A stretch of DNA of 64,000 nt from NCBI GenBank assembly GCA_002049455.2, contig KV918811.1:1-64000 (forward strand), in the 5' to 3' direction. The translations under genes and the position numbers were made by a program. Below are positions 1-22,203 of the stretch, piece by piece. The notes beneath the pieces were generated by a model. The model made no database searches, was not told the DNA's origin, and worked only from the letters and a program-made list of their open reading frames with translations. This DNA comes from Porphyra umbilicalis (lineage: Eukaryota > Rhodophyta > Bangiophyceae > Bangiales > Bangiaceae). Numbering within the stretch: position 1 is the stretch's first letter; the number at the start of each line of letters is the position of its first letter.

Positions 1-1
1 C

Positions 2-2629: not shown

Positions 2630-2998
2630 GGAGGTGGTACCGTCGATGGGGGTGGGCTGGCGGTCGCCGTGGCGGTCTTGCTCTTTTTCGTTGTGGTGGG
2701 ACGTGTGTCTCGTGGTTGTGTATGTTTATTTGTTTGTTGCGTCGACCTCTTCTGCGGAACTCAGCTGTTTCTGGGGTTTTTTGGCCCCGTGCTGAATTTC
2801 ATGCTTGCAGACAGACCACCGCATTAGCGGGTCGCAGGACCCGTCTTACGTGCGCCACCCCGTCTGCGCACCGTTGTGTGGGACGGAGCGTGTCGGTCGC
2901 ACGTCAGAGGTGGCAGCAAGAGTCAGCGATAGCGCAGGATGACGGCATGTTCGTTGGCCACCTGCCTCGGTGACCTGGCGGGCGCCATCCCTGTGGGC

Positions 2999-3043
2999 GG
3001 TGATCCCCTTCCACCACGCACGTGCGTGGTGGAAGGGATCACC
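2999..3043. repeat. 45-nt near-perfect palindrome
   Basis: The arms GGTGATCCCC...GGGATCACC are complementary around a CACGTG centre, with a single extra C on one side. A cruciform or RNA hairpin is possible. The same palindrome is at 52016-52060 in the other arm. Confidence 0.9.
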
Positions 3044-3052
3044 GACCGCGCC

Positions 3053-3086
3053 GCGGGCGGACGCGGTGCGCACCGCGTCCGCCCGC
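3053..3086. repeat. 34-bp perfect palindrome
   Basis: GCGGGCGGACGCGGTGC is followed directly by its exact reverse complement. It lies 4 bp from the 8-bp insertion site of the large transposon. An identical copy is at 51973-52006. Confidence 0.95.
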
Positions 3087-3090
3087 CTGT

Positions 3091-3098
3091 GGCCCACC
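3091..3098. repeat. 8-bp target-site duplication, left copy (GGCCCACC)
   Basis: GGCCCACC here and at 20441-20448 flanks the transposon. The uninterrupted right arm has a single copy (51961-51968, reverse complement), which proves it is a target-site duplication. Confidence 0.93.
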
Positions 3099-3160
3099 CG
3101 TGAAGGAATCGGCCGTGCGCAGTTTCACATGACATTGGTGGGAATATGCCGTGTGAAACC
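3099..3160 (+). repeat. Left terminal inverted repeat of the Zisupton-type element
   Basis: It is the reverse complement of 20379-20440, best conserved from GTTTCACATGACATTG inward. The repeat itself contains a hairpin: GTTTCACA near its middle pairs with TGTGAAAC near its inner end. Confidence 0.88.
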
Positions 3161-3544
3161 AGCTCAGCCAATCAAATGACGACAATCTGCTGGCGAGCGC
3201 TGTGGTGACAGCAGAACAGACAGCCCTGGGACGCCCACGGGGCGGCCGGATGCGTGCCAGACACAGACACAGGCGCCCAGACAGGCCGACCGACCCTGCC
3301 CAGACACAAACAAGCCCCCCAACAGCCGGCATGTCAAGGGGGCACGACCTGTGTCAAGGGGCATATGACAAGGGAGATACGGACCAGATCGCAGATAAAT
3401 CGGAAGCGCGGTCCTCGGAAGCTGATAAAAACGCATGCTGGACCGCTGCTGCCAGCCACAGATCAAGCAGCCATGAATATCGGACCTATCGCGTCGCCAT
3501 CGCGGGCATGCTAATATCACGAAAAACATGCCATTTGAGAGCAC
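3161..3544. other. Left subterminal region, no gene seen
   Basis: Unique sequence between the terminal repeat and the satellite array. No convincing coding frame or RNA gene was recognised. Confidence 0.6.
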
Positions 3545-6346
3545 ATGCGTGCACGCACCCTGTGGGCGCCCTGCACGCGCCCGGTTTGCGCGCGCACCGG
3601 CCAAAAATGGGGGCCCAGAATTGGCGCGCCAATAACCGTGGGCCCGCATTTGCGGCGGGGGCCACTGTGGGCCACACCCCCCCATTCGGCCCCGCCACCT
3701 GCGTGCACGCACCCTGTGGGCGCCCTGCACGCGCCCGGTTTGCGCGCGCACCGGCCAAAAATGGGGGCCCAGAATTGGCGCGCCAATAATCGTGGGCCCG
3801 CATTTGCGGCGGGGGCCACTGTGGGCCACACCCCCCCATTCGGCCCCGCCACCTGCGTGCACGCACCCTGTGGGCGCCCTGCACGCGCCCGGTTTGCGCG
3901 CGCACCGGCCAAAAATGGGGGCCCAGAATTGGCGCGCCAATAATCGTGGGCCCACATTTGCGGCGGGGGCCACTGTGGGCAACACCCCCCCATTCGGCCC
4001 CGCCACCTGCGTGCTCGCACCCTGTGGGCGCCCTGCACGCGCCCGGTTTGCGCGCGCACCGGCCAAAAATGGGGGCCCAGAATTGGCGCGCCAATAATCG
4101 CGGGCCCACATTTGCGGCGGGGGCCACTGTGGGCCACACCCCCCCATTTGGCCCCGCCACCTGGGTGCACGCACCCTGTGGGCGCCCTGCACGCGCCCGG
4201 TTTGTGCGCGCTCCGGCCAAAAATGGGGGCCCAGAATTGGCGCGCCAATAATCGCGGGCCCACATTTGCGGCGGGGGACACTGTGGGCCACACCCCCCCA
4301 TTCGGCCCCGCCACCTGCGTGCACGCACCCTGTGGGCGCCCTGCACGCGCCCGGTTTGCGCGCGCACCGGCCAAAAATGGGGGCCCAGAATTGGCGCGCC
4401 AATAATCGTGGGCCCGCATTTGCGGCGGGGGCCACTGTGGGCCACACCCCCCCATTCGGCCCCGCCACCTGCGTGCTCGCACCCTGTGGGCGCCCTGCAC
4501 GCGCCCGGTTTGCGCGCGCACCGGCCAAAAATGGGGGCCCAGAATTGGCGCGCCAATAATCGCGGGCCCACATTTGCGGCGGGGGCCACTGTGGGCCACA
4601 CCCCCCCATTCGGCCCCGCCACCTGCGTGCACGCACCCTGTGGGCGCCCTGCACGCGCCCGGTTTGCGCGCGCACCGGCCAAAAATGGGGGCCCAGAATT
4701 GGCGCGCCAATATTCGCGGGCCCACATTTGCGGCGGGGGCCACTGTGGGCCACACCCCCCCATTTGGCCCCGCCACCTGCGTGCACGCACCCTGTGGGCG
4801 CCCTGCACGCGCCCGGTTTGCGCGCGCACCGGCCAAAAATGGGGGCCCCGAACTGTCGGGCCAATATTCACGGGCCCGCACTTGCGGCGGGGGCCACTGT
4901 GGGCCACACCCCCCCATTCGGCCCCGCCACCTGCGTGCACGCACCCTGTGGGCGCCCTGCACGCGCCCGGTTTGCGCGCGCACCGGCCAAAAATGGGGGC
5001 CCAGAATTGGCGCGCCAATAATCGCGGGCCCACATTTGCGGCGGGGGCCACTGTGGGCCACACCCGCCCATTCGGCCCCGCCACCTGCGTGCACGCACCC
5101 TGTGGGCGCCCTGCACGCGCCCGGTTTGCGCGCGCACCGGCCAAAAATGGGGGCCCAGAATTGGCGCGGCATTAATCGTGGGTCCGCATTTGCGGCGAGG
5201 GCCACTGTGGGCCACACCCCCCCATTCGGCCCCGCCACCTGCGTGCACGCACCCTGTGGGCGCCCTGCACGCGCCCGGTTTGCGCGCGCACCGGCCAAAA
5301 ATGGGGGCCCAGAATTGGCGCGCCAATATTCGCGGGCCCACATTTGCGGCGGGGGCCACTGTGGGCCACACCCCCCCATTTGGCCCCGCCACCTGCGTGC
5401 ACGCACCCTGTGGGCGTCCTGCACGCGCCCGGTTTCCGCGCGCACCGGCCAAAAATGGGGTCCCCGATCTGTCGGGCCAATATTCACGGGCCCGCACTTG
5501 CGGCGGGGGCCACTGTGGGCCACACCCCCCCATTCGGCCCCGCCACCTGCGTGCACGCGCCCTGTGGGCGCCCTGCACGCGCCCGGTTTGCGCGCGCACC
5601 GGCCAAAAATGGGGGCCCAGAATTGGCGCGCCAATAATCGCGGGCCCACATTTGCGGCGGGGGCCACTGTGGGCCACACCCCCCCATTCGGCCCCGCCAC
5701 CTGCGTGCACGCACCCTGTGGGCGCCCTGCACGCGCCCGGTTTGCGCGCGCACCGGCCAAAAATGGGGGCCCAGAATTGGCGCGGCATTAATCGTGGGTC
5801 CGCATTTGCGGCGGGGGCCACTGTGGGCCACACCCCCCCATTCGGCCCCGCCACCTGCGTGCACGCACCCTGTGGGCGCCCTGCACGCGCCCGGTTTCCG
5901 CGCGCACCGGCCAAAAATGGGGGCCCCGAACTGTCGGGCCAATAATCACGGGCCCGCACTTGCGGCGGGGGCCACTGTGGGCCACACCCCCCCATTTGGC
6001 CCCGCCACCTGCGTGCACGCACCCTGTGGGCGCCCTGCACGCGCATGGTTTGCGCGCGCACCGGCCAAAAATGGGGGCCCAGAATTGTCGGGCTAATAAT
6101 CATGGGCCCGCATTTGCGGCGGGGGCCACTGTGGGCCACACCCCCCCATTCGGCCCCGCCACCTGCGTGCACGCACCCTGTGGGCGCTTTGCACGCTCCC
6201 TGTTTGCGCTCCCGCTGGCTGAAATTGGCGGCCCGTATTGTTGGCCGCTTTTGGATTTGGGGCCATTGAGGGACACCCCGTGCCATTCAGCCTCGGCATC
6301 GTTTGCGCAGCGGCACCTGCGTGCACGCACCCTGTGGGCGCCCCCC
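3545..6346. repeat. 154-bp satellite array, about 17 units plus degenerate remnants
   Basis: A 154-bp unit repeats in tandem. The block around GAATTGGCGCGCCAATAATC recurs every 154 bp from about 3619 to 5624, with variants. Each unit holds the palindrome ATTGGCGCGCCAAT between GGGCCC boxes. Variant units (GAACTGTCGGGCC near 4850, 5470 and 5930; GGCGCGGCATTAATC near 5165 and 5780) recur four units (616 bp) apart, so the right half shows higher-order structure. Degenerate remnants run to 6346. The minus strand of the consensus unit has no stop in any frame, so the long frames here are not evidence of genes. Confidence 0.95.
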
Positions 6347-6702
6347 CCGATCTCGGCCACGGAACTGGGCTGGCAGCCATCCCTCTCGCCGGCCTAATCG
6401 TCCATGGTGGCATCCGTCGTGTTCCCCGCCGCCATCCCCGTCGCTGCCCGCATCTCGGGCGTCGTTTCGTGTGGTTGCTGTTCTCTTCGTGCTTCCTGCT
6501 TTCACCCCCCACGCCATCCGCTGCACCGGCGACGCTCACTCCCTTTGTTGGGACGGCAGCGGCGCCTCCTCTGTTGCCCGTGCCGCGACGCGTTTGTTGG
6601 CGGGTGCGACTCGGTCTGCATTGAGTGCCGGCGTTTTTCACTGCCGTTGGCCCCCGCGCCTGCGCCATCACATTGAGCACGTCTGCAAATGTCACCCTCG
6701 GC
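6347..6702. other. Upstream region of the transposase gene
   Basis: No separate gene is seen. The frame of the transposase first exon is open back to about 6625 but has no ATG before 6703. A promoter or an upstream exon could lie here; neither can be shown. Confidence 0.45.
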
Positions 6703-9700
6703 ATGCCTGACCCGCCACCTGGGCGGACACGGCGTTTCCATGCGCCGGTGGTTGCCGCGTACGCTGGCGGTCGTGAGACGACGCCCATCCTTTTGCAGCA
6801 CCTGGCATCTTTGCCACCTTCCTCGCTCGGCACCACGGCGGAGGTGATTGCTCCAAGTGCCCACTGCAGGCCGGCAGACGTCACGTGGGACGCTCGAGTG
6901 CGCGCCGGCTCTCGACGGCGTGACCCAGCGACCGCCGCTTGGTCGACCGATGCCGGCGCGGGCTCGGAAGTCGAGGCGGCCCGCCCTACCAAGAGGTTGC
7001 GGACGCGCTCTTATCGTGCCGTCCCTGTGTTTGACAACGACGACGGCGGATTTGATGATGGGCGCGCCCCGCCCCGCCCAAGTGCCGCTCGTCCCAAGCG
7101 CGACCAATTGGTCAGCAAGGAGGTGATGGAGGCCCTCTCTTCCTGCTTGCGTCGAGCGTGCGGACGGCCGTCAGCCACCCGCGTCGGCAGGGGCAAGACG
7201 GCGGTAAGCGCAACGCTTGTGGGTGATCCCGAGTCACGCTCACGCGCCATCGTCCTTCAACTCGGCACGGGGAAGCACGACCAAGCTGTCCTCTGGTGCT
7301 CTAACCGCGGTGGTGTTCTGTGCTCTTGCTTCACGGGCACACAGAACGCGCTCTTCCTGTCAATCTCTTCCCGCAGCTCGGTGTGCAAACACTCCACGGC
7401 GTTGCTGTCATGCTTGTCAACTGCTCGGATCCCTCTTGCGGAGTTCTGGCACCGCATGCACCTGCCGTCGGCGCCCAAGGACTTTGTGTGTCGCCGCCCC
7501 CATGGGTCGTCGTCGTGGGTCGTGCTCTTCCGCTCCGTCTACTCGATTGTATCATTCACGGCGGCGAACGTTGCCTCCTGCATCGCTCCGAGCTGCCGCC
7601 GCTTCCGGGCGCGGTGCGGCCATGTCAACTTGGCTCGGCCGTTCAACTCTAAGCACAGAGCTGTCGTACCGTCTTGTGCCAAGGAGCGGGCTGCCTCAAC
7701 GCTCAAGGTGTCGGCCGCCGGGGATGGAGGCGGCATGCACGGTGGCCTGCCAGACGAGGACGCGGGGATTGAGAAGGAGCCGGGTGACACGGAGCGCGGC
7801 AGCGAGGACGCCGCTGAAGCAACCGTAGCGGCGCGAGTACGGCGCAACCTGCTGCCGTGTGTGGGTGAAGTCGCCGCTGGCGAGCTTTGGGCGAGGACCG
7901 CGGATTGGAAGGGCATGTTTGCCACTCGATGCGCTCGTGGCGGTGTTGGTCGGGCCGAGGACCTCAAGCGCATGAGCAATCTCTTGCACCAGTGTGCGAA
8001 GGGTGGGCTCATTTATGAGAACGGCATGGTGCACGTGGAGCCCTACTGCGGCAGCTGCGGGTGCAAGCGCGAGGAGAGGCACGTGGTCACGAAGGAGCCG
8101 GCGGTTCTCTACACGCACCATCCATCGGCGCCTTCCATGCGTGTAAGTCACTCCTCTCTCCTTTATTGCTCCCGACACTGTGAGTGGGTCGTGATGGTCA
8201 GTTTGGCATGGTGGTACTGCTTGTCTGGCACTGTCTGACGCACCTCACTATCCTGCTCCTTATCGCCTTCCTGTTTTATGCCCTTGTATGTCGTTCTATG
8301 TCTTGCGCAGCTGCTCGTCGGGCAGTGGACGTGCGACTGTGGGCGGCTCGTCGAGTATGACGGCAACGCCGACGCGCTTTTCTCTTTGAGGAGGCGCGAC
8401 AAGACGCGGCGCTGGGTCGTCTTTACCCGAGCTCTGCTCGACAAGCTCTACTCCTTCATCATTTCCGCACGGTCTACGTACACGGCGGCCACACGCCACC
8501 TCTCTGCGGACATGCTGTCGTTCTCGATGCGCCGGCAGGACGTGGTCAAAGTTGGTACCGACATGCTACGAACGTTTGTCATCCCCCCCGACGCGGCATG
8601 CTGCCCACTCTGCGGCCCACACCCAGACTTCATTGTCATTGATGGGCAAGCTCTCGGGTGTACCGATCCAGACGACGTCAACCCTGTGCGGCTGGAGGAG
8701 GAGGTACCTGTCCTGGACATCCCAGCTTCGGCTTTCTGTGTGGTCCAGTCGCCCCCGCTGCGCGCCGCCATTGCCAAGGTACTCAAGGCGTCTGCGCCAC
8801 TCACTGGTCCGCAGACGGAGCTGCTGCGGAGCTGGCATCACAAGATCGCCGTCAACGACCGCGCGTCTGTCGAGACGGCCGCCGCACGAGTCTTCTTCCA
8901 TTTCTTCCCGTTCGAGGATCGGAGCAAACTCAATGGCGGCGGCGGTACTGCGTCGTCGCCTCCCGGTGCCTCTGTCACCGAGCCCGAGGGAACCAGTGGC
9001 GTGGGGAAGGAGGCCGTTGGCAGCTCGGGCCTCGAGGCCAAACTACGGACGGACGGCGACGGCAACCTTACGCTCGGCGGGAAGGGCGCCCCTGCCAAGC
9101 TACCGAGCGACTCGTGGCGTGAGCGGGTCGGCCATTGCGCGCCCGACTTTGTTACGTACGCCAAGAAGGACGACGGGGCGTGGCTACACGTGCGACCTTT
9201 CCTGCAAGCCTTCTTGGGCGAAACAGTCTCCGGGATGTTTCACGGCCACGACGAAAACGCGGCGCGCCTACTGTCGAACTGTCTGCGGCTGCAGGCGGCA
9301 GGCAAGTGGCGTGACGTGTCGGAGGCCGTCGACGGCATTGGTTTCTTGACCAACTTCCTGGGGTGGTTTGCCTCCGTCCTCGACGAGGAAGAACCTCTTC
9401 GGCACGCGGTGGGCACCGTGCTGTTGTGCGCCGTGGACATGGAGGAGTCTGTCGACAAGCTCTTCTCCGCGGCCGCCGACAAAAAGGACACCATCGACCG
9501 CGGGTCGGTCAACGCCGAGTACTGCCGCACGTGGGGCGGCACCCCAACGCCGGCGGACTACAACCGCTGGCGCGCCGGCAAGGTGGCGGACGGGGGGGTC
9601 GACATGGACGACCCCTTCGTGAGCTTTGAGACCTTTCCCGGGCTTGAGCGTGTACGGCCGGGCATCAAGGACACAGAGGCCCTGAAGCGACGGGTGGGGT

Positions 9701-11403
9701 ACAAGGGTAAGGACCGCCACGCCGCGGACGTGGAGGGTGACGGGGACGCCTGTAACAAGGCGTTTTCCATTAAGTGTGGTCTTACGCAAGGTGTGTTCAA
9801 TGTTGTGTGTCCTCATGTTATCACCCTTGGCTTTCGTTGCTTGTTTCGTGCCGAGAGCGTCGGCGAGGCACTGTCCATTGTGTTGGAGCGCTTCCCCTCT
9901 CTTCCCAAGGTGATCTTCTACGACGTGGCTTGTAAGCTGGACAAGAACGCGCTCCGCCGCGTGCGGCCCATCTTGCGGCGGCATGGTGTGCGCTGCATCC
10001 TCGACCGGCCCCACTCTATCACTCACACTTGCTCTCCCATTTACATGCCTGACGAGAGTCTGGGGTCCACCGCCGGTGTGGCAACTCAAGCTGCTGAGGT
10101 ATCCAACTCTATCGCTGTGGCCAACCGCACAAGCCTCGCCTACATGACGCCCAAGACCTACATGGCGCACAAGATGGTGCAAGTTGCGATGATGAACATT
10201 CGCAAGCTCCTGCGCATGGCATCCTCCAACACCAAGAGCGAGAACGACCACGTCGCCCTCGCCCCATTCTACCACAGCCAGATTGTGAGGGGCTGCCAGC
10301 GCGGGTCGGCGTGCTCCTGCCAGGCGTCCATCGTCGATACCGGCGTGCGAGAGACGGAGGCGGCATTGCGCGACAAGGTCGATGGGACGCGCGGCACTGA
10401 CGACCGCCTAGGCGCCGAGCTCCAGGATGTGGGTGCAGCCGACGGTCAAGCGCCGGTCTTTGTCGACGAGGTGGTCGTCGACGACGCCACAGTCGGCGAC
10501 TCGGATGGCGACGCGGCCGCCCTTTTCCATCCCACCTGCTCAGATGAGGACGTCGTGCTCGACGGCGGCAGGCAGGTCAACCTTGCGCCTTTGAGCATCG
10601 TCCCGCTGTCGGATGGACACGCTGCAGGCCTCGACGCTCTCGTCAATGGTCGGGCGCCAGCCACTGTCGTGCGGCCGCGGAACAAGGCGAAGGTCCGGTT
10701 GACGGTGGCCGACTTTCGGCGGTTTGAGGCCGAGAATTGGCTAAACGACTCCACGATGAACTCTTTCGTCTCGCTGATCAACAAACGGGCCGTGCAGATT
10801 GCCGCCTTGCGCGGCGTCGGGGTGCCCGCGACGACACATCTCCCCCGTACGTTCATGTTCAACACATTCTTCTTCTCCCGACTGCGCGAGCGTGCCGGCT
10901 GTTACGATTATGCGGGAGTGCGCCGGTGGGGATTTCGCGGCGGGCTGGACGTCGGCGCCGTGGACCGCATCCTCATTCCCGTCAACGTGGCCAACTTGCA
11001 CTGGGTGCTTGTGCTCGTCGACGTGCAGCACCGGCGGTTGATCTTTTTCGACTCGCTCGGCGGCAAGGCGGCGCCCATTCTTGGCACGGTGCGCAAGTGG
11101 TTGACGGACGAGGTTGGGGCTCGTCTGGGGACAGATGCGGTGGAGGCGTGGGACATTGCGTCTTGGGACGGGGTCGTTGATGTGGGAATGCCGCGTCAAG
11201 CTGATCGGGGGAGCTGTGGGGTGTTTGTCTTGGCCGCCGCCGACCGCTTTGCCCTCGGTGCCCCTCTTTCTTTTTCCCAGCACGACGTGCCCGTCCTACG
11301 TCAGCGCATGGGTGTCGCACTGTTCGTCGATAGTTTGACCGCTGTAGACGGCTGCTCGTTGCTTCCTGACGCGGGCGAAGGCGACGACGCCGTTGATAAG
11401 TAG
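6703..11403 (+). CDS. Zisupton/KDZ transposase with SWIM-like finger and C-terminal Ulp1-type protease
   Basis: Two exons, 6703-8142 and 8311-11403; the donor (CGT|GTAAGT) and acceptor (TTGCGCAG|CTG) join in phase 0 to give about 1,510 residues. Visible in order: a basic, disordered N-terminus; a SWIM-like zinc finger with C207-x-C209 and C228-x-H230; further cysteine pairs (CGSCGC, CDC, and CCPLCGP followed by VIDGQALGC), typical of KDZ proteins; the KDZ catalytic core with VIFYDVACKLD (Asp about 1018), RPHSITHTCSP and TQAAEVSNS; then a SUMO-protease-like (Ulp1, C48) domain from ENWLNDSTMNSF with His1377 (NLHWVLV), Asp1394 (FFDSLGG), Gln1443 and Cys1449 (DRGSCGVF). KDZ transposases cut and paste DNA; the fused protease may act on SUMO or process the protein, which is inference. 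The start is the first ATG in the open frame; an upstream exon cannot be excluded. Confidence 0.88.
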
Positions 11404-14222
11404 GCACGTGGGACATGGCTTTGTTTTACTCGCCTGGGCTTGGGGCCTGCTGTACATTACATTTTTCTCTCTCCATACCCATCGGTTCAGCGTCAGTGCA
11501 TTGTCAGTGGTTACCAAAAGGGACGAGAAAGACTACCTCCATGATCATACCAATCAGGTCGGATGGCCATGGCGGCCCTTGTCACTTTGCGCCGACACCC
11601 CCGCACAATAGAGAGCTATCCGCCCCCCGGCAGGCACTGGGCCGCGTATCCCACAGCATGGGTCCACCCTCCGCCTGCACGCTGCAAGAACCGTACCCCA
11701 TGGCACGTGCAGGCGACACTGGCAGGCGGCGGCGACCGAATCTCGCTCAATGCCACAACGCCAACAGCTGGTGCCAACTGAGTGTGTCCAGAGCGGGCGA
11801 AGCAACATTGGAATGGGGGGAGCAGCAGGTCGTGATCAGCCCAGCTCAATGCCAGAACAGGGATGCAGCGCGATAGTGTGACACCTCAGACACACACGCC
11901 GACCGAAGAAAGCCACGGTTGGTGGCGCCACTGGCATTTGCTCATGCTCATGTAGCGGATTAGTGGCTCAGGCAGGGCGGAGCTGCGGATGCCAGGCTGT
12001 TCGCGGGTCCGTTTGGGGGTGGACGAGACTGAAGCATAGAAAATTGAGTCGTCGGTGGGCATCGATAAGGTGGGGTAGCCTGGTACACTTGACTGAAGCA
12101 GTTGTGCTGTGGCAGTCCTGTTTCCTGCAGCGCACGTTTCGAGTTGTGGTCTCCGCGCCGGCCCCATGCGGGATGCTCCCAATCGGTAAAAGGGCAAGGG
12201 TGTGGTAATGTCATCATTGAGCGTGAGCGCCAGTCTCGACCGAGCGGTGTCCGTCTCGACGAACGTGTCGGTGAAAACGCATATTGCTGCCGACTCCTCC
12301 CGACACACTGCCAACAGACAATCGCGGCTGCTCGAACCAGGTATCATTGGCTGGCGATATGGCTGACATTGCCTCAGTGCTGTGGACGCCACGAGGCGCG
12401 CGGCTGAGCATGTCGTGATGTCCCAGCAGTTGGTAGGACTGGACACGGTTGCATGTGAAGGGTGGGGCAGAGACCGAGGATATAAAGACAGTGGAGAAGT
12501 AGTGAACACGCAGCCCCAGTCCCACTCCCCAAGTCGGTTCTGTCACTCTCACTGGTGCGTGACCGCAGAAACGCTGCCCCTGTCTCAGAGCGCCCAACTC
12601 AAGGGCACTGAGCTTTCACCCCTGCGGTGACTGGACCGCTGGCCAGGATCCACGGAGCCGACTGAGATGGGATGCTGGCAGGAACGAGGAGCTTCCAACA
12701 GCAGGGGTATGGAAGCCCTGCCATTCCCGTACTGATACCTCTGCTGCGGCACATGAGGGCAAAAGACAACCCCCCCCAGAAGGCAGCAGTGCGGGAAACC
12801 GAGGTCAACCCCACCCCTCCCCAGATGGCCCCAGAGCCGGGATTAGGCAATGGCGGGGACGCGCCGTCAGTCCCCCCCGTATGCCGCTGATGCTGCAGAT
12901 CAGGCACACAGACACCCCCCCCCCCAGATGGCAGCAGTGCGGGAATCGGGGGTCAACCCCACCCCCCCAGATGGCTCCAGAGCGGGGATTCGGCAATGCA
13001 ACCCAACCCCCGCCAGAGTGCTGCAGACAGGAGTGACAATGCAACCGGGTATGACCATCTGGGCGATCCCGCTAAACATGTTAGCCGAAAGGCCAAGCCC
13101 GCGATGAGCCACCGATGATCCCAACTGACACTCGTGCTGGGGTCGGACACAGTCATAAGCCATATCATTCGGAAATCTACAATACAACCTCCAAGAAAGC
13201 TCCTCGAAAACCAATACAGGCCCCCAGGCCATCAAGCAAGACGGGCACCAACGAGAGAAGCTTGATCTGAACAATACAAGCGGACTGGAAATCGAAAATC
13301 CAAAGAAGTGAGCGTTGAAGCGGAATACCGATATGAACAGGAGAATTCCTCTTCTGGGCGACGACTGCCAGGCGATCCGAGTGGGCGGGCGGATCGAACG
13401 GTTCTGGCCGTTTCAAAGCATGTCTTGGGCACGGAAACGCAGTGCGCGCCAGGACCGAAGATGAGGAGCGCTTCGTTAGGGAAACAAGCGTCGACATGAC
13501 GTGCGAGTGGTCAGCTTGGCCGACAGGTGCAATACACGTTCAACAAGATACACTTTGAAAGTCCCTGAATTCTTCATGACGGGGTCATTTTAAAGTGACG
13601 ACTGTCTCATGGCTGCGGATGCTGTTGTGTCGATTGAACAAGACTGGCATTTATTTGACGGCGGCGGCTGGGCCGCAGGTGGGTACCCCATCTCTGTGCC
13701 TGGTCCGCAGCCACCCCGAGTGGAATGCCTCATTTGGGATGCCAACGACGACTTGAGTTTGAGAGAAAAAGGGCCCCCATGATTGAGCGAACTGTACTGT
13801 CATCTCATGCAAATTCTCTGCCGCTGCCCTGTCAATCGGCACGCTTTATTTATTAAAGCCTGTTTGTGGTATTTGCAAATATGGTGTGCACAGATGGCGA
13901 GCCAGATATGTGTGACCTCCGATTGTCGGTTTGTCCTTGTGGCCCCCTTTGCCGCTCCGAGCGGGCTCCATGTCACTCGTTTGGCCCTTCCCGAGGTCGT
14001 TCTCCCGGACCCGAACGACCACGTTGGGCGACTTCCTTGCCACCCGGCCAGCACCCTTTACCGACATCATCGGGTCCCCCACGTTTATTAAGCGCGCACG
14101 CCTCGTCTCCCCGCGCCTGCGCCGGTGCTTGCTTGCCCTATTACGTCGCCCCCACTTCTCCTGGAGTTGCTCCATTCCCCCGCACCGCATGACTGCTCGC
14201 ATCCACACGCCCGTCGATCGTG
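11404..14222. other. Gene-free stretch inside the Zisupton-type element
   Basis: No convincing gene. It contains an imperfect tandem pair of roughly 110-bp repeats (about 12740-12860 and 12893-13010, sharing GCAGCAGTGCGGGAA and GGTCAACCCCACCCC, offset about 148 bp) with C-rich runs. The stretch 13990-14222 has a protein-like frame that could be an upstream exon of the helicase gene, but no splice junction is certain. Confidence 0.5.
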
Positions 14223-16979
14223 ATGACTCCACCACTGGCTGCTGTGGACCCGCGGCCACTCCTGGCCGTTATCACCCCCCGCACCTCTGTCCTCCTCCGC
14301 ACCTCGGACCGGGATGGCATTGCCCAGCAGCTGTTGGGCATGGATTCTGGGACCGTCCTGGCGTGTAGTTCGTTCGCCTCGTCTGAGTCAGCCATGTGCT
14401 GGCTCACAGACCCTGGCTCCATCGACGCGGTGTCGACGGGCGCTCCGCAAGGGGATGGCAGCCCGGTCTCTCTGCCCAACGTCTCGGCGGGCTGGCTGGC
14501 TGTTATCAGCCGCGGGTGTCGGTCGTGCTTCGAGGTGGACCGGTCGGGCGTCGGCGGTGCCCTGCAGCTGCTCCTGACGTCGCCGTCGGCTCTGTGCGTG
14601 GTGGCACGGTTCTCGGCTCCCGGCCATGCGTACCAATGGCTTACGGGACTGGCTGCTGATGCGGTTCTGGAGGTGCTCACCTCCACTGCCTCGGCTTGCG
14701 GGCGCATCGCGGGGCTGCCGCCACAGTCGGCCTCAGCTGACCTCGTTGCCATTGAGCCGGGCCCACTCGTGGTGGCGGCGGCTCCTTTGGCTTGCTCGGG
14801 TTCTCCCTGCGGGGGCGTCGCCAAGGGGGCCCGTCAGGCTGACTTGTCGCCTTCTGCTGGCGGCGGGCAGTCGCAGCGGACGGCGACCTCGAGCGGGGGC
14901 AAGGGGTTCATTGGATCCTCCACCTGCGGGTCGGCGACGGCTCCTCTTTCCTCAATGCGGGCGGCATGCGGCAGTTCGGTCCGATCCGGCGCTTCAACCT
15001 CAACGCGGCAGACCGGCTTTGCTTCATCGACTTGGCGGCACGGGCCGCGTCGTCCGCGGCCTCTCAGTGGCATGGCACCTTCCAAGCGGGATGGGCAGCG
15101 AGGTGGTCAGGTGTCTGCTCGTGGGCGTGGCGACAGCAGCGGGCATGATTGGGGTCAGCTGCGTCGGTCGAGCCCCCCCAGCGCCAAGCGCGCGCGTCTC
15201 TGTGGGGAGGGTGCGCCGCCGGCGTCTCTCAACCCGGCGGCTGTTATCCCCGACGGCTCTGCGCCGACGTTCACGTTTGAGACGGTCCGCCATATGATGG
15301 GCGAGTCGCTGGCTGCTTGGGAGCAAGATGACGTTGACGAGGCTCTGCGACGCGACGCGGACCTGCGATTACGACCTGGAGCAGCAGTCAAGGACGGGGT
15401 TGAGGCTGAGCTTGGGGACGCCGTCGTAGTCGCCGCTCGCAAGGCGGGAGACAACATTGTTGGCGCTGGCCATGGCGTCCGGGAGATGACCGGGGCCATC
15501 GCAGCGTCTTCCACCGGAACATGTTCGGACGGTGACGCTTGGCACGACGAGGGTCGGCGGGCCAAGCCGGGCCCAATCAGCCAAATGGCCGCCGACCTGT
15601 CTTGGACGGCAGTGTACGCGCGGCTGTTCGAGCGGTCACAAAGTACGTTTGTGAGTGGGGGGCCCGGGGTTGGCAAGACGTCCTTCTTGAGGGGCTTTGT
15701 GTCCTTCCTGCGGCACCGGGTGCCGGCCCCCAATGCCGTCGTGGTCGTGGCACCGACGGGGAGCGCGGCCAAGACGGCCAAGGGGGTGACTTACCACTCC
15801 TTCTTCGGGTTCGTCAAGGAGTACAAGATGCAGCTGCCCAACCCCGTCGACGAAGCGGCGCGCATGTTGGCGCTGGAGCGATGGAAGCCTATTGCTCGTC
15901 GGCTCGCTAAGGTCGAGTTCCTGCTGATGGACGAGATCTCGATGGTGCCCGCGGACAACCTCGATGTCATGTATGAGTTGCTGCGGCAGTCTCGGACGCG
16001 GCACGCGCCTCCGTTCTTGATCTACGCGTTCGGAGACTTTCTGCAGCTTTGCCCGCCCTTTGGTGAGATGGCTTTCACGGCCAGATGCTGGCGGCCGGTG
16101 TTTTCGGGAGCCTTACTGGAGCTCACTCACGTTTACCGCCAGGGGCAACCCGACTTTGTGGCTGCTTTGGACGACGCACGGTTTGGGCGGTGCACGGCGG
16201 CTGTGCAGAAGCTGGTCGACGAGTGCACGGTGTCGGACGAGAAGTACAAGGAGCTCGAGTGCGCGGTGCTTCATTTAATGCCGCGCCACGAGGATGTGCG
16301 CGCGCACAATGCGATGTGCCTTGCTCGGCTGAGCCTGGGCAAACGTCCAGATGACTTCATTGCCACCGACGGCGTCAAGCTGGACCCCAACCGGGACGGC
16401 CGCGTGCGCGAGCCCGACGTGACGACCGTCTCATCGCACTCCCGCGACGCTGCTCTACTGGACTGCGTGGCGCCCCGGATTGTGCAGCATTGCCTCCAGG
16501 CCCGGGTGATGCTGATCACCAACCAATTTCTGGGGATGGGCCTGTTTCACGGGAGCATCGGCCAGCTCGTCGATTACGACGAAGCAGACGGCTCCCCGGT
16601 CGTGCGGTTTGACAACCACGAGGTGATGCCCGGCTTTCGGTCGTTTCAAGGTGTGCGGGATGCTGGCGCGGACTGGATTGAGGTCTTCTGCCCGCCCGTT
16701 GACTTTGAGGCTCGCGTCTTCTCTCGCCCTGGTTGTCTCGCAGTGCGCCGCCAGGTTCCTTTCGTGTTGGGATGGGCCATCACTGTGCACCGGTCGCAGA
16801 GTTTGACTCTGTCTGAGGCGGTCCTTGAAGTTGGTGATGCGTTCGGGGCGGGCATGGTGCTGGCCGCTATGAGCAGGGTTTCCGACAAGAGGCGCATGTA
16901 CGTGCGATCGTTTGCGGGGAGTCGCTTGTTGGCCGACCGTGCGGCGCTCCAACTGTACCGGGAGAGCTCTCGTTTGTAG
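14223..16979 (+). CDS. Pif1-like DNA helicase carried by the transposon
   Basis: A 918-residue open frame. The C-terminal half (from about residue 455) is a superfamily 1B helicase of the Pif1/RecD type: Walker A SGGPGVGKTSF with Lys485, VVVVAPTGSAAKTAKG and TYHSFFGF (motif Ia), Walker B FLLMDEISMV with Asp570-Glu571, AFGDFLQLCP (motif III), ELTHVYRQ (motif IV), and GWAITVHRSQSLTL (motif V). Such enzymes unwind DNA 5' to 3' using ATP. The N-terminal 450 residues are low in complexity and not recognised; near 14930-15150 another frame looks equally protein-like, so an intron or frame error may lie there. It lies in the same orientation as the transposase and converges on the orphan gene at 17064, 84 bp beyond its stop. 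A role in moving or repairing the element is inference. No HUH nuclease domain is seen, so this is not a Helitron protein. Confidence 0.85.
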   Translation: MTPPLAAVDPRPLLAVITPRTSVLLRTSDRDGIAQQLLGMDSGTVLACSSFASSESAMCWLTDPGSIDAVSTGAPQGDGSPVSLPNVSAGWLAVISRGCRSCFEVDRSGVGGALQLLLTSPSALCVVARFSAPGHAYQWLTGLAADAVLEVLTSTASACGRIAGLPPQSASADLVAIEPGPLVVAAAPLACSGSPCGGVAKGARQADLSPSAGGGQSQRTATSSGGKGFIGSSTCGSATAPLSSMRAACGSSVRSGASTSTRQTGFASSTWRHGPRRPRPLSGMAPSKRDGQRGGQVSARGRGDSSGHDWGQLRRSSPPSAKRARLCGEGAPPASLNPAAVIPDGSAPTFTFETVRHMMGESLAAWEQDDVDEALRRDADLRLRPGAAVKDGVEAELGDAVVVAARKAGDNIVGAGHGVREMTGAIAASSTGTCSDGDAWHDEGRRAKPGPISQMAADLSWTAVYARLFERSQSTFVSGGPGVGKTSFLRGFVSFLRHRVPAPNAVVVVAPTGSAAKTAKGVTYHSFFGFVKEYKMQLPNPVDEAARMLALERWKPIARRLAKVEFLLMDEISMVPADNLDVMYELLRQSRTRHAPPFLIYAFGDFLQLCPPFGEMAFTARCWRPVFSGALLELTHVYRQGQPDFVAALDDARFGRCTAAVQKLVDECTVSDEKYKELECAVLHLMPRHEDVRAHNAMCLARLSLGKRPDDFIATDGVKLDPNRDGRVREPDVTTVSSHSRDAALLDCVAPRIVQHCLQARVMLITNQFLGMGLFHGSIGQLVDYDEADGSPVVRFDNHEVMPGFRSFQGVRDAGADWIEVFCPPVDFEARVFSRPGCLAVRRQVPFVLGWAITVHRSQSLTLSEAVLEVGDAFGAGMVLAAMSRVSDKRRMYVRSFAGSRLLADRAALQLYRESSRL

Positions 16980-17063
16980 TAAAACCTAAGAACGTGCCCG
17001 TTTACTTTAGTTCCACACCAGCGAGGCAGTGACATAGATGGGAGAGGCATTGGTCTTTACTTG

Positions 17064-19448
17064 TCACACTTCCGCATCACCGGCATCATCCCCCGCCTCC
17101 TCTTCATCCATCATGGCCACCTCCGCGTCCGAGTCAGAGTCAAAGGGAGCACCAAGAGTAGGGGCTGGATGGGACATAGTTGCAGGAAGCAATGGAGCCA
17201 CAGATGGGAACCGCACAGCTAATAGAGACTCTGCACTCAGCGTCGCCGCCTGCACGGAGGCGGTGACGCGGTGCAGATCGCCACCCGCCGGCAATCGAGA
17301 TGGAACAAGAGGCGGTCTACCCGAGCCAGATGGCTCAGCACTAACTCCACCACCACCATCCACAGATACAGGAGTCGGAGGCGGCGATGAGAGAGAAGAT
17401 GCAGGCACACCAGGAGTGGAAAAGCACGAAGAACTGGGCGGTACAGATATAGTTCGCTGCTCGTCTGGTGGTATGCGTGCAGGCGAGGGGAAACAGACGG
17501 GCTGCTCGCGGAAGCTACCAGCAGCAGCGAGAGGTTCGGGGATGGGATCGGGAGGTGCACCGGGGGGGACCGGGGTCGGCGCCGCCGTCACTTGGCTCAT
17601 GCTCATTCCGCCCTGACCAGCAAGTACGCCCGATACCTGCTTCACTGCCGCCTTCTTGCGGTGAACGCTCTTGTTCCCATGTGAGGCGGGGCGCTTCTTG
17701 GAACCTCCCACAGAGGCAGGGGCCGACGAGGAGTCGGGAGCGAGCCCAGCGTCAGCGGTCAGGAGATGCGTGCGGGGAACCGACAGACGCTCGCGCCGAC
17801 GAGCAAGTATGCGTCGAGCGCGACTCGCTCCTGCCGTGTCCGCCTTGTCCACAGCCAGGAGATGATCCACCTCGGCTTGGCGCGTCTCCAAAACAGCTGC
17901 GAGTGGGGCGGCTGACGTCGCCAGCGCGGGTCGGCCGTCATCCGTGCGATCTGCTGAAGCCGCGACCGTCGGCTCGAGCGCCTGGGGCAGCCCGGGGTTG
18001 GCCAACTCGAAGTCGTGGCACGCCGCCGCAGCAACCGACGCCTTGCGGTGAACCGGCGCCCGACCTGACGCAACCAGCTGCTGCATGATGGTGCAGAACG
18101 CCGGGTCCCACGTACCAACCAGCAGGATCGAAGCAACCGTCACCGCCATGGGCACCTTCAGGCCGGACGCAATGCGCTGGACCTCCACAGAGTCGTCTAA
18201 GGGACCCCTTTTGAAGTTGCGGTCGGCCTTGACATCCCATTTCCGGATGGTGGGGTTGATCGCCGTCATATCCACCTTCAACTTCCAGCGAGAGGTGAGC
18301 GTCATGCGCCCGGGATGCGTTTGCCGCGACACCGATCCCTCGGGCGGCACGACGGCGACGTTCTTGACGGGGGTGCTCCACGTCGGCCAACACAAGGACA
18401 GCAGCTTGCGGACGGCCGGCCACTCGGTCTCGACCTCCGCGGCCGAGATCACACCGGCGGCCGCCTTGGCAGTCTGGCCGCTGTGCAGACGGCCCCAACA
18501 CAGAAGACTATCGACGAGCAGTTGGCGGACCACGCCCTTAGCGTCGTCGCGGGGCATGAAGGCCTCTAACACGGCGGTCGTGCACGCGACTGCTTGCGGC
18601 GACGGCTTGACCAGCGGCTGCTCCTTGACGTGGACGGCGGCAGGCACAGCTGCAGTGACCATCAGCGACTCGGTCATCGTGCCGTCATTGCCGGCTGGTG
18701 CAGCGACTTGGCGTCGGGCGACGACCGTGCCTCCGATCTCGGGCATGTCTTGGCCGCCCCCGCCAGCGTGAACAACAGCGACTGCGGCACGAGCTAGTGG
18801 ATCCCTTCGGACCTCCAATCCGCCGTCGGGAACCGCCAAGTCACCTCGATCACCTCGATCACCAAGGTCGTTGTCCTTGGGGGAGAGCTTGACACCGCCG
18901 CCTGCCGACATGGACCCCCCTGCACCGGGGGCACTCCCCGCTTCGACCCTGGCTGCAGCCCCGTCATCACGAATGACCCGCCCCCCATCAGGAACCTCGC
19001 CTGGACGTGGCGACAGCCGAGTTGATCCCACAGGATTTGGATGGCGCGCGCTTGTAAGACGGAGCTGCTCCAGGCGTAGGGCACTCGCTGCCGAGAGCGC
19101 ATCGAGTTCCTTGTGCCGGTACGCGAAGGTGAGGCCAATGTTGATGATGCGGCTCGCATGGTCGTCCTGGTCAGCGAAGAAGCCCAACCGATCATGGATG
19201 CGGATCCATCGGTGATGCGGGGCGTCCATGGGGCTCTCCCCTTGGCACGTGCGGCTGATCGCAGCATGCAAGACGGCCCCGGTTGGCGCCAGGTGCTCGT
19301 CGAGCTTGGCACCAACGTCGTAAAAGCTCTGCAGCAACCGAGCCAGGTACGAGGTCTTCTGCACGTCCGTCAGGCCAAGCGCCCGGAAGAACTCCGCGTA
19401 CTCGTCGTCGGCATCTTCGGGCACGGCGGCGGCGGGGACCTCTGGCAT
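17064..19448 (-). CDS. Orphan protein of the Zisupton-type element, 794 residues
   Basis: I do not recognise a family. The frame starts at the ATG at 19448 (MPEVPAAAVPEDADDEY) just after a plausible acceptor (TTGAGCAG|ATC), so an upstream exon may exist. Visible parts: an N-terminal helical segment (FFRALGLTDVQKTSYLARLL), a G/A-rich linker, a central ordered block with INPTIRKWDVKADRNFK and KVPMAVTVASILLVGTWDP, a basic segment (KKRPASHGNKSVHRKKAAVK) that could be a nuclear signal, and an acidic C-terminus (DSDSDAEVAMMDEEEAGDD). It is convergent with the helicase gene. Residue composition changes along the frame as in real proteins, and no tandem repeat explains the openness. A DNA-binding or accessory role in transposition is possible but unproven. 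Confidence 0.65.
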   Translation of the reverse strand: MPEVPAAAVPEDADDEYAEFFRALGLTDVQKTSYLARLLQSFYDVGAKLDEHLAPTGAVLHAAISRTCQGESPMDAPHHRWIRIHDRLGFFADQDDHASRIINIGLTFAYRHKELDALSAASALRLEQLRLTSARHPNPVGSTRLSPRPGEVPDGGRVIRDDGAAARVEAGSAPGAGGSMSAGGGVKLSPKDNDLGDRGDRGDLAVPDGGLEVRRDPLARAAVAVVHAGGGGQDMPEIGGTVVARRQVAAPAGNDGTMTESLMVTAAVPAAVHVKEQPLVKPSPQAVACTTAVLEAFMPRDDAKGVVRQLLVDSLLCWGRLHSGQTAKAAAGVISAAEVETEWPAVRKLLSLCWPTWSTPVKNVAVVPPEGSVSRQTHPGRMTLTSRWKLKVDMTAINPTIRKWDVKADRNFKRGPLDDSVEVQRIASGLKVPMAVTVASILLVGTWDPAFCTIMQQLVASGRAPVHRKASVAAAACHDFELANPGLPQALEPTVAASADRTDDGRPALATSAAPLAAVLETRQAEVDHLLAVDKADTAGASRARRILARRRERLSVPRTHLLTADAGLAPDSSSAPASVGGSKKRPASHGNKSVHRKKAAVKQVSGVLAGQGGMSMSQVTAAPTPVPPGAPPDPIPEPLAAAGSFREQPVCFPSPARIPPDEQRTISVPPSSSCFSTPGVPASSLSSPPPTPVSVDGGGGVSAEPSGSGRPPLVPSRLPAGGDLHRVTASVQAATLSAESLLAVRFPSVAPLLPATMSHPAPTLGAPFDSDSDAEVAMMDEEEAGDDAGDAEV

Positions 19449-20378
19449 GATCTGCTCAACAAGAACAGCAGTAAGAATACAAGCAGGACCGGCCGAAAGA
19501 CGTTTAGCAGTCGGAAAAAAAAGACCACAGACGCAGGGACGAGTCACACCCCCGCCCAAGGACACACAGTTGGAAGGGAAGTAGCCACAACGAGGTGCCG
19601 AAGACCGCACCAACCCCACGGCCCCGCACATCTAGAACGAGAGTGGAGTCGAAAAGGGGCCGACAACGTACGGCTCACAACGAAGCACAGCAGCTCACAG
19701 CAGGACTGCACAGACAGCCCACAACGGGGGAACACGCACAGCGTATTGCCCCAGCGTGGTACCCGGTCGACAGCACGCTCACACGCGCTCCCGGGTCGGC
19801 GACGCCTCCCCTCGCGCACCCCGGTCGGCGACACCTCCTCACACGCTCCCGCGGTCGGTGGCAGGCCCACACGTGCACCCTCTTTGGCTGCCGGCACCAC
19901 ACACTCAGCGGTACGCAACGCGTCCCCGCACACTCCCCGGAGGACGCCACGTCCGGCAGCACTCCCCGCTTGGCGCCACGTCCGCGCATGAAACCAAACA
20001 AGCACTACGTGCCTACGTGCTCCACGCTCACGGCAGGCGGTGCATTGCGCCATGGTGGTCGTGACAACGGTGGTTGCGGGTCGGGCCCATGGTGGCGGGG
20101 CTCGCGGCAGTCCGTCATGGTGGCGGATTGGGGCGGCGGGGCGGTCCACCTCGATGACGGTCGTACCCACCGATAGTGGTCCGGTCGACAGGTGATCATC
20201 GGCAGATGGACGCCCCTGGATATTATCGGCTCGATTCTCCGAGATGTGAAATGATTGAAGGACCAGAAATCGGCGGAATCACGAGGACGATTCTAAGAAT
20301 CGCCCAGCGCATCCGGCCGGACCCCCAGCCGGCCGCGAGCGCGCGCAGCGCGCTGCCGCCCCCCCACCCCCCCCCTGC
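19449..20378. other. Right subterminal region of the Zisupton-type element
   Basis: Upstream of the orphan gene. No convincing gene. A short motif like GGTCGGCGAC recurs near 19790-19860, and a C-rich run precedes the terminal repeat. The orphan gene's promoter should be here but is not identifiable. Confidence 0.5.
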
Positions 20379-20440
20379 GGTTTCACACGGCATATTCCCA
20401 TCAATGTCATGTGAAACCGTGGACGAGCATTTCCTACCTC
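20379..20440 (-). repeat. Right terminal inverted repeat of the Zisupton-type element
   Basis: Inverted match of 3099-3160. The inner 40 nt are bounded by GGTTTCACA and TGTGAAACC, so the repeat can itself form a 9-bp stem. Confidence 0.88.
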
Positions 20441-20448
20441 GGCCCACC
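20441..20448. repeat. 8-bp target-site duplication, right copy (GGCCCACC)
   Basis: Direct repeat of 3091-3098. Host sequence resumes here and matches the reverse complement of 51968 downwards. Confidence 0.93.
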
Positions 20449-20851
20449 TGTCGAACTGACAGCTGAGGCCACACCTCGTGGGACCGACGCAGGCCAATGC
20501 GCCGGGGCACGCGCGCCTGGCATCGCCGCCAGCACACGACGCGGACCACCGAGGCTTCTGACACCAAGAACTGTCGCAAGATTTCACACGCCGTTGGCTG
20601 CACGCTCGTCACGACGGTGACGCCCGTCCTCCAATCCAAGCCACCGCATCGTTTTCATTGCTGTCACGGCCACCACGATACCGTGGGGCCTCGGGCGGGG
20701 GGCGGCGGATCAACCCACTGCTGCATGAGCCCGCGCGTCGTCGCGGGTGGCCCAGAGTGCCATGGCTCGGCGCGCAGTACGCGAGGCGGCGGCCGGCCGA
20801 GCGCGGGCTCCACCGCTACCAGGAGCGTGGACATTTCCGCGATCAAGGTGC

Positions 20852-20857
20852 TATAAA
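20852..20857 (+). promoter_or_regulatory. TATA box of the secreted-protein gene
   Basis: TATAAA in GGTGCTATAAAGTCGCG, about 180 bp before the ATG. It is conserved exactly in the inverted copy (28670-28675). Confidence 0.55.
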
Positions 20858-21038
20858 GTCGCGCCCCGTGCCGCGTCCACAACCACCTTCACCTCTCCTC
20901 ATTCACAACCACACCGCCCGCCAGAGCTCCACACACACTCCCCTACCTTTTTCTCGCCGCCTGCCCCCCGCCGCCAACCTCTTCAAGCACCTCACACCCC
21001 TCCGCCGCCACCCCCACACCGCCTCCCCCACCACCACC

Positions 21039-21803
21039 ATGGGCTTCCTCACCCGCGCCGCGGTGCTCGCCGCCGCCGCCTCTGCCGTCGCCGCCACCGT
21101 CGCGGTCGCGACCGCCGAACCCCACCTCCGCGCGCGTGCCTTCCACGCGCGCGGCGCCGCCGCCGGCGACATCAAGGCCACCTTTGACAAGTTCTCCGCC
21201 GCCCTCGGCGACGACAATGGGTCGGGCCCCCCCGCCCGCGACGGCCGCCGCTCGATCAACTGGGACGCTGACGGGGTGCCGTTTGACATGCCCGGCGACT
21301 TCTTCAACACGGCCGTCCCCCGCGGCGCCGTCTTCCACGCCAAGGGCGGGGAGTTTCGGGTGTCCAACCCGCCCCCCGTGCAGCACATTGTCGACAACCG
21401 GTTCACGTCGCTGAACAAAAAGTTGGCGGTGCAGCTCAAGCCGTTTTCGGCGCCGCGCCTCTTCACCCCGCTGCGCGACAATGTGGTGGAGGTGCGCTTT
21501 GAGGTGCCGGGCAAGCGGGGCGCCAAGGCCACGACCGCCGGTTTTGGGGCGGTGCTCCTCGACGTGGACCGCAAGGACGTCACGAGCCTCGCGTACTATG
21601 ACGTGCACGGGCGGCGGTTGGCAAAGGTGGCGGCGCCGGCCAAGGCGGGGGGGCTGAGCTTTGTCGGCCTCGTGTTTAACAAGCCGGTCGTGGCGTACGT
21701 GCGGATGACGCTCGGCAACGCCAAGGTGACGGACCGCGATGAGGGGCACCGCGACGTGGTCGTGGCTGACGACTTTGTGTATGGCGAGCCGGTGCGCGCG
21801 TGA
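21039..21803 (+). CDS. Secreted protein with a bacterial-type beta-rich domain, left-arm copy
   Basis: 254 residues. It begins with a clear signal peptide (MGFLTRAAVLAAAASAVAA, cleavage probably near residue 27), so the product should enter the secretory pathway, with the cell wall or outside as likely destination. The mature part has INWDADGVPFDMPGDFFN, PRGAVFHAKGGEFRVSNP, FSAPRLFTPLRDNVVEVRF, FGAVLLDVDRKDVTSLAYYD and a C-terminal VVADDFVYGEP. From memory, this succession resembles a conserved hypothetical domain of secreted bacterial (often PEP-CTERM-type) proteins; no catalytic residues can be named. The ATG at 21039 is chosen because the signal peptide starts there and a TATA box and C-rich leader precede it. 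It lies downstream of TOR in the same orientation. The inverted copy at 27724 differs at two residues (Ala/Thr, Val/Ile). Confidence 0.85.
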   Translation: MGFLTRAAVLAAAASAVAATVAVATAEPHLRARAFHARGAAAGDIKATFDKFSAALGDDNGSGPPARDGRRSINWDADGVPFDMPGDFFNTAVPRGAVFHAKGGEFRVSNPPPVQHIVDNRFTSLNKKLAVQLKPFSAPRLFTPLRDNVVEVRFEVPGKRGAKATTAGFGAVLLDVDRKDVTSLAYYDVHGRRLAKVAAPAKAGGLSFVGLVFNKPVVAYVRMTLGNAKVTDRDEGHRDVVVADDFVYGEPVRA

Positions 21804-22203
21804 GGGGTCGTGTTCTGAGGGGAGGGCGCCACCGTGCTCAGGCACGCCCGTGGTACCCTCCAGCCGAGAGGACCGGTGAAGGAGCACGAGCTCCTCTTTT
21901 TGATAACGTTTTTTTGTGATATGCTTCTTTTTGATACGCTACTTTTTGATATTATTGAAGTTTGATCAGCCATCGTTGCCTCGAGAAATAACACTCCACG
22001 ACCGGACACTGTGCGGCGCAGCTGCTGCTCCTCTGCTGAGCGCGCTCCAGTCCAGGTGCGCATGTCCCCAGCTTTGTGTCACTCGCCGGCCGCCTCACCA
22101 GGAAAGACTATGTCATCCTCGCCAGTGAGACTGACAATCCAGCCGACGTGACGCGGCTGTGCTCCCGCAGCACAACCAACGTGTCCTCCCACCGAGGGTG
22201 ACC
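21804..22203. other. 3' flank of the secreted-protein gene and start of the spacer
   Basis: No gene. An AT-rich patch at about 21895-21960 repeats CTTTTTGATA several times, unusual in this GC-rich setting and perhaps a 3' processing region. Confidence 0.5.

Follow-up and report, generated by a model that had tools for sequence, protein, structure and literature searches.

A 17.3-kb KDZ/Zisupton-type transposon of Porphyra umbilicalis with a recurrent Pif1-like helicase and a convergent orphan gene

Introduction

Zisupton elements combine a KDZ-type transposase with a zinc-finger region, a Ulp1 SUMO protease domain and subterminal inverted repeats. The superfamily-defining element, fish Zisupton, attributed to Boehne et al. 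in 2012, is reportedly 11 kb long with a single coding sequence. Here we analyzed a transposon that appears to be of this type in the red alga Porphyra umbilicalis, located at positions 3099–20440 of the first 64,000 nucleotides of contig KV918811.1 (assembly GCA_002049455.2); this whole 64,000-nucleotide stretch is referred to as the window.

Zisupton elements generate 8-bp target duplications, and the word Pif1 is absent from the accessible part of the paper reporting this (PMC12730594). Cryptococcus KDZ1–3 are active elements of about 9–11 kb, with 8-bp target duplications in KDZ1 and 4–8-bp duplications in KDZ2 and KDZ3, according to the available text of PMC12810828. Giant KDZ elements reach 30.3 kb in Ectocarpus, where many giant families hold extra, mostly unknown genes, and an active 31.7-kb KDZ element occurs in Chlamydomonas reinhardtii (PMC12477816, accessible portion). 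Zisupton and Kyakuja have also been reported in Chlamydomonas, in a paper whose available portion lacks the word helicase (PMC8226300). Helicases occur in the DDE transposons KolobokH and AcademH, and a Kolobok from a red alga with RecQ encoded on the opposite strand is mentioned, in the accessible parts of PMC9587614, PMC10045372 and PMC10799480.

Judged from its sequence features, the Porphyra element is very probably a complete KDZ/Zisupton-type transposon belonging to a large, old clade with a fixed gene set, consisting of a KDZ–Ulp1 transposase, a Pif1-like helicase and a convergent orphan gene, the latter two of which would act in trans as transposition factors.

The element is bounded by a target duplication and has a paralogous empty site

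The ends and duplications delimit a transposon of 17,342 bp (3099–20440, plus strand). Direct reading of the letters and comparison of copies placed the target-site duplication GGCCCACC at 3091–3098 on the left and at 20441–20448 on the right. An empty site was located at 51755–52160 (minus strand), in the opposite arm of an inverted duplication within the same window, and is paralogous rather than allelic: the flanks joined without the element matched 52160–51755 with 96.8% identity over 406 bp, with one GGCCCACC at 51961–51968. The left arm (1–3098 and 20441–21933) pairs with the right arm (55058–51709 and 28835–27599). Identity between the arms is 98.2% across the 3,098-bp left flank and reaches 95% and 95.6% in two further stretches of 260 and 1,246 bp, respectively. 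On the simplest reading, the insertion is younger than the inverted duplication.

The 83.8-Mb assembly was searched as the genome, and copies are labelled by contig (C4, C13 and so on). It contains genes for light-harvesting proteins, as expected of a photosynthetic organism. The conserved 5′ terminus CGTGAAGGAATCGG (3099–3112, plus strand) gave 27 exact genome matches and none for a reversed control; for the conserved 3′ terminus GCATTTCCTACCTC (20427–20440, plus strand), GCATTTCCTAYCTC was matched 27 times, again with none for the control. A left subterminal inverted repeat (3114–3160, plus strand), containing the internal dyad GTTTCACA...TGTGAAAC, pairs with a right one (20379–20425, minus strand) at 43 of 47 bp. 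The subterminal dyads could fold into single-strand hairpins in some families, a capacity not retained in all. The original prediction of a complete 17.3-kb element with an 8-bp duplication and an empty site proved exact to the base; its boundaries stand, and its description of the termini is refined in that the inverted repeats are subterminal, with the outermost ~15 bp pairing poorly.

The coding content comprises a KDZ–Ulp1 transposase, a Pif1-like helicase and an orphan

All large frames of the window element are open. Exon 1, the most upstream transposase exon identified, is an open frame at 6625–8142 (plus strand). It is followed by an inferred intron (8143–8310, plus strand), recognized by comparing three copies: all of them keep a GTAAGT donor, and C51 and C261 have an AG acceptor, which is not evident in C13. 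Exon 2 (8311–11403, plus strand) carries a KDZ domain at about 9766–10032 and a Ulp1/Peptidase_C48 domain at about 10738–11316. In Pfam, the KDZ domain (PF18758) matched 16 of 16 family members at E ≤ 1, the best at 3.3e-8, and the relative C24 scored 30.4 bits, above the cut-off of 26.6. Asp, Asp and Glu columns, which we take to be the catalytic triad, are invariant across the 16 transposase sequences. The exon-2 frame matched Peptidase_C48 at E 1.5e-22 and contains His, Asp, Gln and Cys motifs that we assign to the Ulp1 protease. Cysteine clusters are visible in exon 1 (by eye, SWIM-like CxC...CxH and CxxCxC) and at the exon junction, with no Pfam match to them. No Academ or Kolobok transposase was matched in Pfam, where the exon-2 frame gave only KDZ and Peptidase_C48 and the exon-1 frame only OapC at E 0.3.

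The helicase frame (14193–16979, plus strand) encodes 928 aa. Its earliest Met codon is at 14223, and the Walker A and Walker B motifs are at 15657 and 15921. It matched PIF1 (PF05970, E 6.4e-12) and AAA models in Pfam, and its helicase motifs are intact. Its best PDB match was the PIF1 entry 6hph, which we take to be human PIF1, at 97 bits; the Helitron protein Helraiser scored 21 bits. Among the element frames scanned with Pfam, no Rep/HUH, Helitron_like_N or polymerase match was obtained.

Convergent with the helicase lies the orphan gene (17064–19448, minus strand), encoding 794 aa from the likely Met. The window protein had no Pfam match; among 13 related members, five Pfam families appeared at E 0.033–0.36, each in one of the 13 and none convincing, and a PDB search returned cortactin at E 0.11, with no convincing match. 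An N-terminal region and a core spanning residues 273–461 are conserved across 13 sequences from 13 loci. The original prediction of a Pif1-like helicase and an orphan gene inside the element is borne out by these searches.

Taken together, the KDZ domain, the fused Ulp1 protease, the subterminal repeats and the 8-bp duplications support assignment of the element to the KDZ/Zisupton type, a placement set by features, and they back the predicted Zisupton affinity.

The gene set recurs at most related loci in the genome

Manual merging of three sets of search rows (95, 59 and 45) gave 43 transposase, 54 helicase and 42 orphan places, with weaker helicase rows excluded; the totals are lower bounds, as the best 44 of 354 transposase and the best 83 of 151 helicase candidates were scored. 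A helicase was counted as colinear when it lay within 20 kb downstream of the transposase, and an orphan as convergent when it lay within 3 kb of the helicase. By this measure, 37 of the 43 best-scored transposase loci had a colinear helicase and 32 had the orphan as well. At transposase identities of at least 49%, the helicase was present at 35 of 36 loci and the convergent orphan in addition at 32; chance expectation is about 0.35 helicase neighbours for random positions, with strand and contigs ignored. Viewed from the helicase (at least 42% identity), 37 of 42 had a convergent orphan and 36 of 42 a colinear transposase, and 37 of 42 orphans were accompanied by a helicase.

More distant KDZ transposases (37–43% identity, seven listed) had a related helicase within 17 kb in six cases, at 6.7 kb in C24, 7.7 kb in C172, 9.1 and 9.6 kb at the two C342 loci, 2.8 kb in C230 and 16.0 kb in C10; for C104, no related helicase occurred among the matches listed. 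Transposase and helicase point away from each other in C24, C172 and C342 and towards each other in C230, and the transposase and helicase trees both give ((C24,C342),C172),C230. A search with the orphan core as query found no orphan beside the seven distant transposases.

Two diverged full-length relatives carry all three genes between perfect target duplications: C71 116553–131241 (14,689 bp, duplication GCACGTCC), whose transposase is 72% identical to that of the window, and C223 22377–36847 (14,471 bp, duplication GGGGGCCC), at 59% identity. A second end pair at C71 131280–146579, known from its ends alone, has a duplication matching at 7 of 8 positions (TCCGAAGC/TCCGGAGC).

Two side observations concern these relatives. 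KDZ 5′ ends stand head to head twice, at C71 131241/131280 (38 bp apart) and at C20 369010/369109 (98 bp), possibly reflecting a preference for landing beside an existing end. A separate KDZ subfamily shows no difference in its first 75 bp among C36, C74, C115 and C129 (102674) and a one-base difference in each of C512 and C290, which suggests recent activity.

The three genes share much of their history and are under purifying selection

Of the 32 complete loci, 15 were picked for diversity and mostly open frames and used to build gene trees. Pairwise, the transposase, helicase and orphan trees had 7, 9 and 9 of 12 splits in common, compared with a mean of about 0.1 and a maximum of 3 under permuted labels. 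Mantel correlations between the gene distance sets were 0.93, 0.86 and 0.91 (p 0.0001), and no conflict was seen between splits that each had at least 95% support in both trees.

Ratios of nonsynonymous to synonymous substitution rates (dN/dS), obtained by a simple pairwise count for C51 against C261 and C13, were 0.149 and 0.158 for the transposase, 0.246 and 0.249 for the helicase, 0.328 and 0.339 for the orphan and 0.240 and 0.195 for the exon-1 frame. By these ratios, purifying selection acts on all the genes. Synonymous divergence (dS) between C51 and C261 or C13 was 0.78–1.25, indicating that the gene set is old.

Copies with the same ends include full-length elements and deletion derivatives

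The first 302 bp of the element hit 28 places and the last 300 bp hit 36, yielding 12 end pairs including the window copy. Eleven of the 12 have perfect 8-bp duplications placed at exactly the same base and all different in sequence, and the ends therefore do not arise by chance. The exception is a short copy, C569:894–6496, without target duplication and with many small indels, whose flanks resemble C251 on the left and C4 on the right (12 bp compared on each side); it may be an ectopic recombinant, a poor contig or an assembly error.

C261 (18,563 bp) and C13 (30,021 bp, with extra inter-gene sequence) contain exon 1, KDZ–Ulp1, the helicase and the convergent orphan in identical order and orientation, with the transposase frame interrupted by stops in both. 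These two copies and the recurrent 8-bp duplications are what the check for further copies, suggested along with the original prediction, brought to light.

Seven copies of 4.9–5.9 kb (C4, C129, C34, C351, C251, C32 and C569) are without the coding blocks, as are C189 and C1, short-type copies with further inserts. All nine retain parts of the segments equivalent to 3099–6514, 11304–13455 and 19401–20440, although in C1 only 12966–13354 of the middle segment is kept. An aligned protein piece shows that the last 32 transposase codons persist in six of the nine, and the first 77–79 residues of the orphan frame, about 18 of which follow the likely Met, persist in all nine. These gene remnants identify the short copies as deletion derivatives and not as a simpler ancestor. 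C4, C129, C34, C351 and C251 are mutually 97–99% identical over 4.5–5.1 kb, which indicates recent movement of the group, presumably through mobilization in trans. Separately, C1:230516–232561, inside a short-type copy, holds a KDZ-like transposase frame of low similarity (25% identity), which may belong to a second KDZ element nested there.

The helicase and orphan appear to be functional components of the element

Four lines of evidence lead us to this reading: the helicase and orphan recur in a fixed arrangement at most loci, the gene trees largely agree, the genes are under purifying selection, and a related helicase lies near most distant KDZ transposases. On these grounds the two genes look like an old module of working transposon parts rather than captured cargo or nested insertions. 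The transposase would bind the subterminal dyads, cut at the ends and, in joining, leave a stagger of 8 bp. As transposition factors acting in trans, the helicase and the orphan protein would most likely open or remodel the DNA of the ends, or aid replication and repair around an element that is long, rich in GC and furnished with a satellite. SUMO on host factors may be removed by the Ulp1 domain, and full-length elements would move the ~5-kb short copies in trans.

Several observations weigh against this reading. The window transposase scores 20.9–22.8 bits for KDZ, under the Pfam cut-off of 26.6. The transposase and helicase trees differ in 5 of 12 splits, and some splits are strong in one tree and weak in the other (C20 with C142, for example, reaches 100 in the transposase tree). 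The dN/dS values are simple counts that include some broken copies, and the selection could also reflect a benefit to the host. C312 has a broken transposase and no helicase found within 20 kb downstream, and no orphan was found in C257, C400 and C442, the last with its helicase 696 bp from the contig end on the expected orphan side. Finally, short copies lacking the helicase have spread; since they moved without it, the helicase is not required in cis.

A bolder proposal is that the transposase of this lineage always depends on the Pif1-family helicase and on the orphan, whose fold may be new. Transposition would then be helicase-assisted, for example strand-displacing or replication-coupled, and would allow stable mobility of satellite-bearing elements of 14–30 kb; the association of the genes would predate the main KDZ clade split in the alga. 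We regard this as doubtful and offer it tentatively.

If the helicase and orphan were instead passenger cargo, they would serve the host or the element apart from the transposition reaction. Accessory genes are reported in giant KDZ elements (PMC12477816, accessible portion), short copies lacking both genes have spread, and purifying selection is silent on which function is selected. Cargo, however, usually varies, whereas here the same two genes stand in the same order at 32 of 36 loci with a history largely common with the transposase, and a related helicase also lies near most distant KDZ transposases. We consider this explanation unlikely. The original prediction had called the genes cargo; they do lie inside the element, but the label understates a module conserved at 32 of 36 loci.

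It is very unlikely that the helicase drives a replicative, strand-displacing (peel-and-paste) movement in place of plain cut-and-paste. Its near-constant presence would suit such a process, as would subterminal dyads able to form single-strand hairpins in some families. However, some families have lost the ability to form such hairpins, the ends and 8-bp duplications are typical of ordinary DDE cut-and-paste insertion, and the scanned frames lack a Rep/HUH or polymerase match.

Later nesting of the helicase and orphan in an ordinary KDZ element has a negligible chance of being correct. Copies with the same ends and neither gene, named in advance as the finding that would speak for nesting, do exist (the seven of 4.9–5.9 kb, C189 and C1). 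They are nonetheless internal deletions that have lost the transposase too, six of nine keeping its last 32 codons and nine of nine the orphan start, and independent full-length families hold these genes in an unchanged order. The gene remnants, the tree agreement and the conserved gene order together refute nesting. An assembly artefact in the element or the empty site is just as remote: a large inverted duplication running from the first base of a contig is a place prone to misjoins, and C569 looks chimeric, but many independent same-end copies on other contigs have their own target duplications.

Satellite, non-coding stretch and neighbouring features

A tandem satellite with a 154-bp unit in 17.3 copies was called by repeat detection at 3542–6209, in agreement with the satellite array that had been predicted. 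Arrays of 154-bp period (2.9–17.3 copies) were called in 10 of the 12 same-end copies; C569 was called at a 276-bp period, and none was called in C1. The diverged C71 element has an array of 155-bp units (8.3 copies), but its match to the window satellite is limited to a short motif. With this one diverged family compared, the elements may lastingly keep a satellite of ~154–155-bp period close to their 5′ end. Between the transposase and the helicase, 11404–14192 is a fast-changing non-coding stretch to which C261 and C13 show matches of at most 89 bp only; much of 11404–13455 is retained in the short derivatives.

The inverted duplication is large, its left arm starts at the first base of the contig, and a TOR kinase gene (2–2629) lies within the duplicated part. 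The other arm holds a second giant element (28836–51708, 22.9 kb) with CACAG...CTGTG ends, inverted repeats of ~28 bp and a 3-bp CCG duplication. It is EnSpm/CACTA-like by its ends, and for three of its large frames Pfam gave nothing at E ≤ 0.5.

Comparison with known systems

Like fish Zisupton, the Porphyra element has a KDZ-type transposase, Ulp1, subterminal repeats and 8-bp duplications; unlike it, it adds a Pif1-like helicase, a convergent orphan and a 154-bp satellite. With the giant elements of Ectocarpus and Chlamydomonas it shares a large algal KDZ format and, for the Ectocarpus giant families, the presence of extra genes; compared by description only, it differs in its helicase, which is unmentioned in the accessible portion of PMC12477816. 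The original prediction held the element to be far larger than its transposase needs: the 17,342-bp size stands, but size alone is not unusual beside the 30.3- and 31.7-kb KDZ elements of that source. A near-constant Pif1 helicase and one orphan protein provide a concrete, testable reason for large element size, and the natural short derivatives without intact genes are ready-made trans-complementation reporters.

Cryptococcus KDZ1–3 are likewise KDZ elements, with an 8-bp duplication in KDZ1, but have 139–241-bp terminal inverted repeats and KDZ plus CxC1 domains, and the word helicase is absent from the main text as available (PMC12810828). Helitron RepHel resembles the Porphyra element in bringing a Pif1-superfamily helicase into a eukaryotic transposon. 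The Porphyra helicase is, however, closer to PIF1 (6hph, 97 bits) than to Helraiser (21 bits), and Helitron membership was rejected given the 8-bp target duplications and the lack of a Rep/HUH match in the scanned frames.

Among the literature matches listed, none describes by title or abstract a Pif1 helicase in a KDZ element, supplementary files lying outside the search, and a fungal genome paper (PMC6396904) is the sole one there with both words KDZ and Pif1. The view that no such gene content had been described for Zisupton/KDZ elements is uncontradicted by these titles and abstracts. As far as checked, the combination of KDZ with a Pif1 helicase and the orphan is new; KDZ elements of giant size and DDE transposons that encode a helicase were already known.

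AcademH and KolobokH, as described in the accessible parts of their sources, offer the parallel of a DDE transposon lineage in which a helicase was taken up as a regular component. They belong to other transposase superfamilies, KolobokH carrying RecQ where the Porphyra element has Pif1 (PF05970) and AcademH making 9- or 10-bp duplications; membership in either was rejected, as no Academ or Kolobok transposase was matched and the helicase is PIF1, not RecQ. To our knowledge, the Porphyra element is a further DDE transposon with an acquired helicase, to be set beside AcademH and KolobokH.

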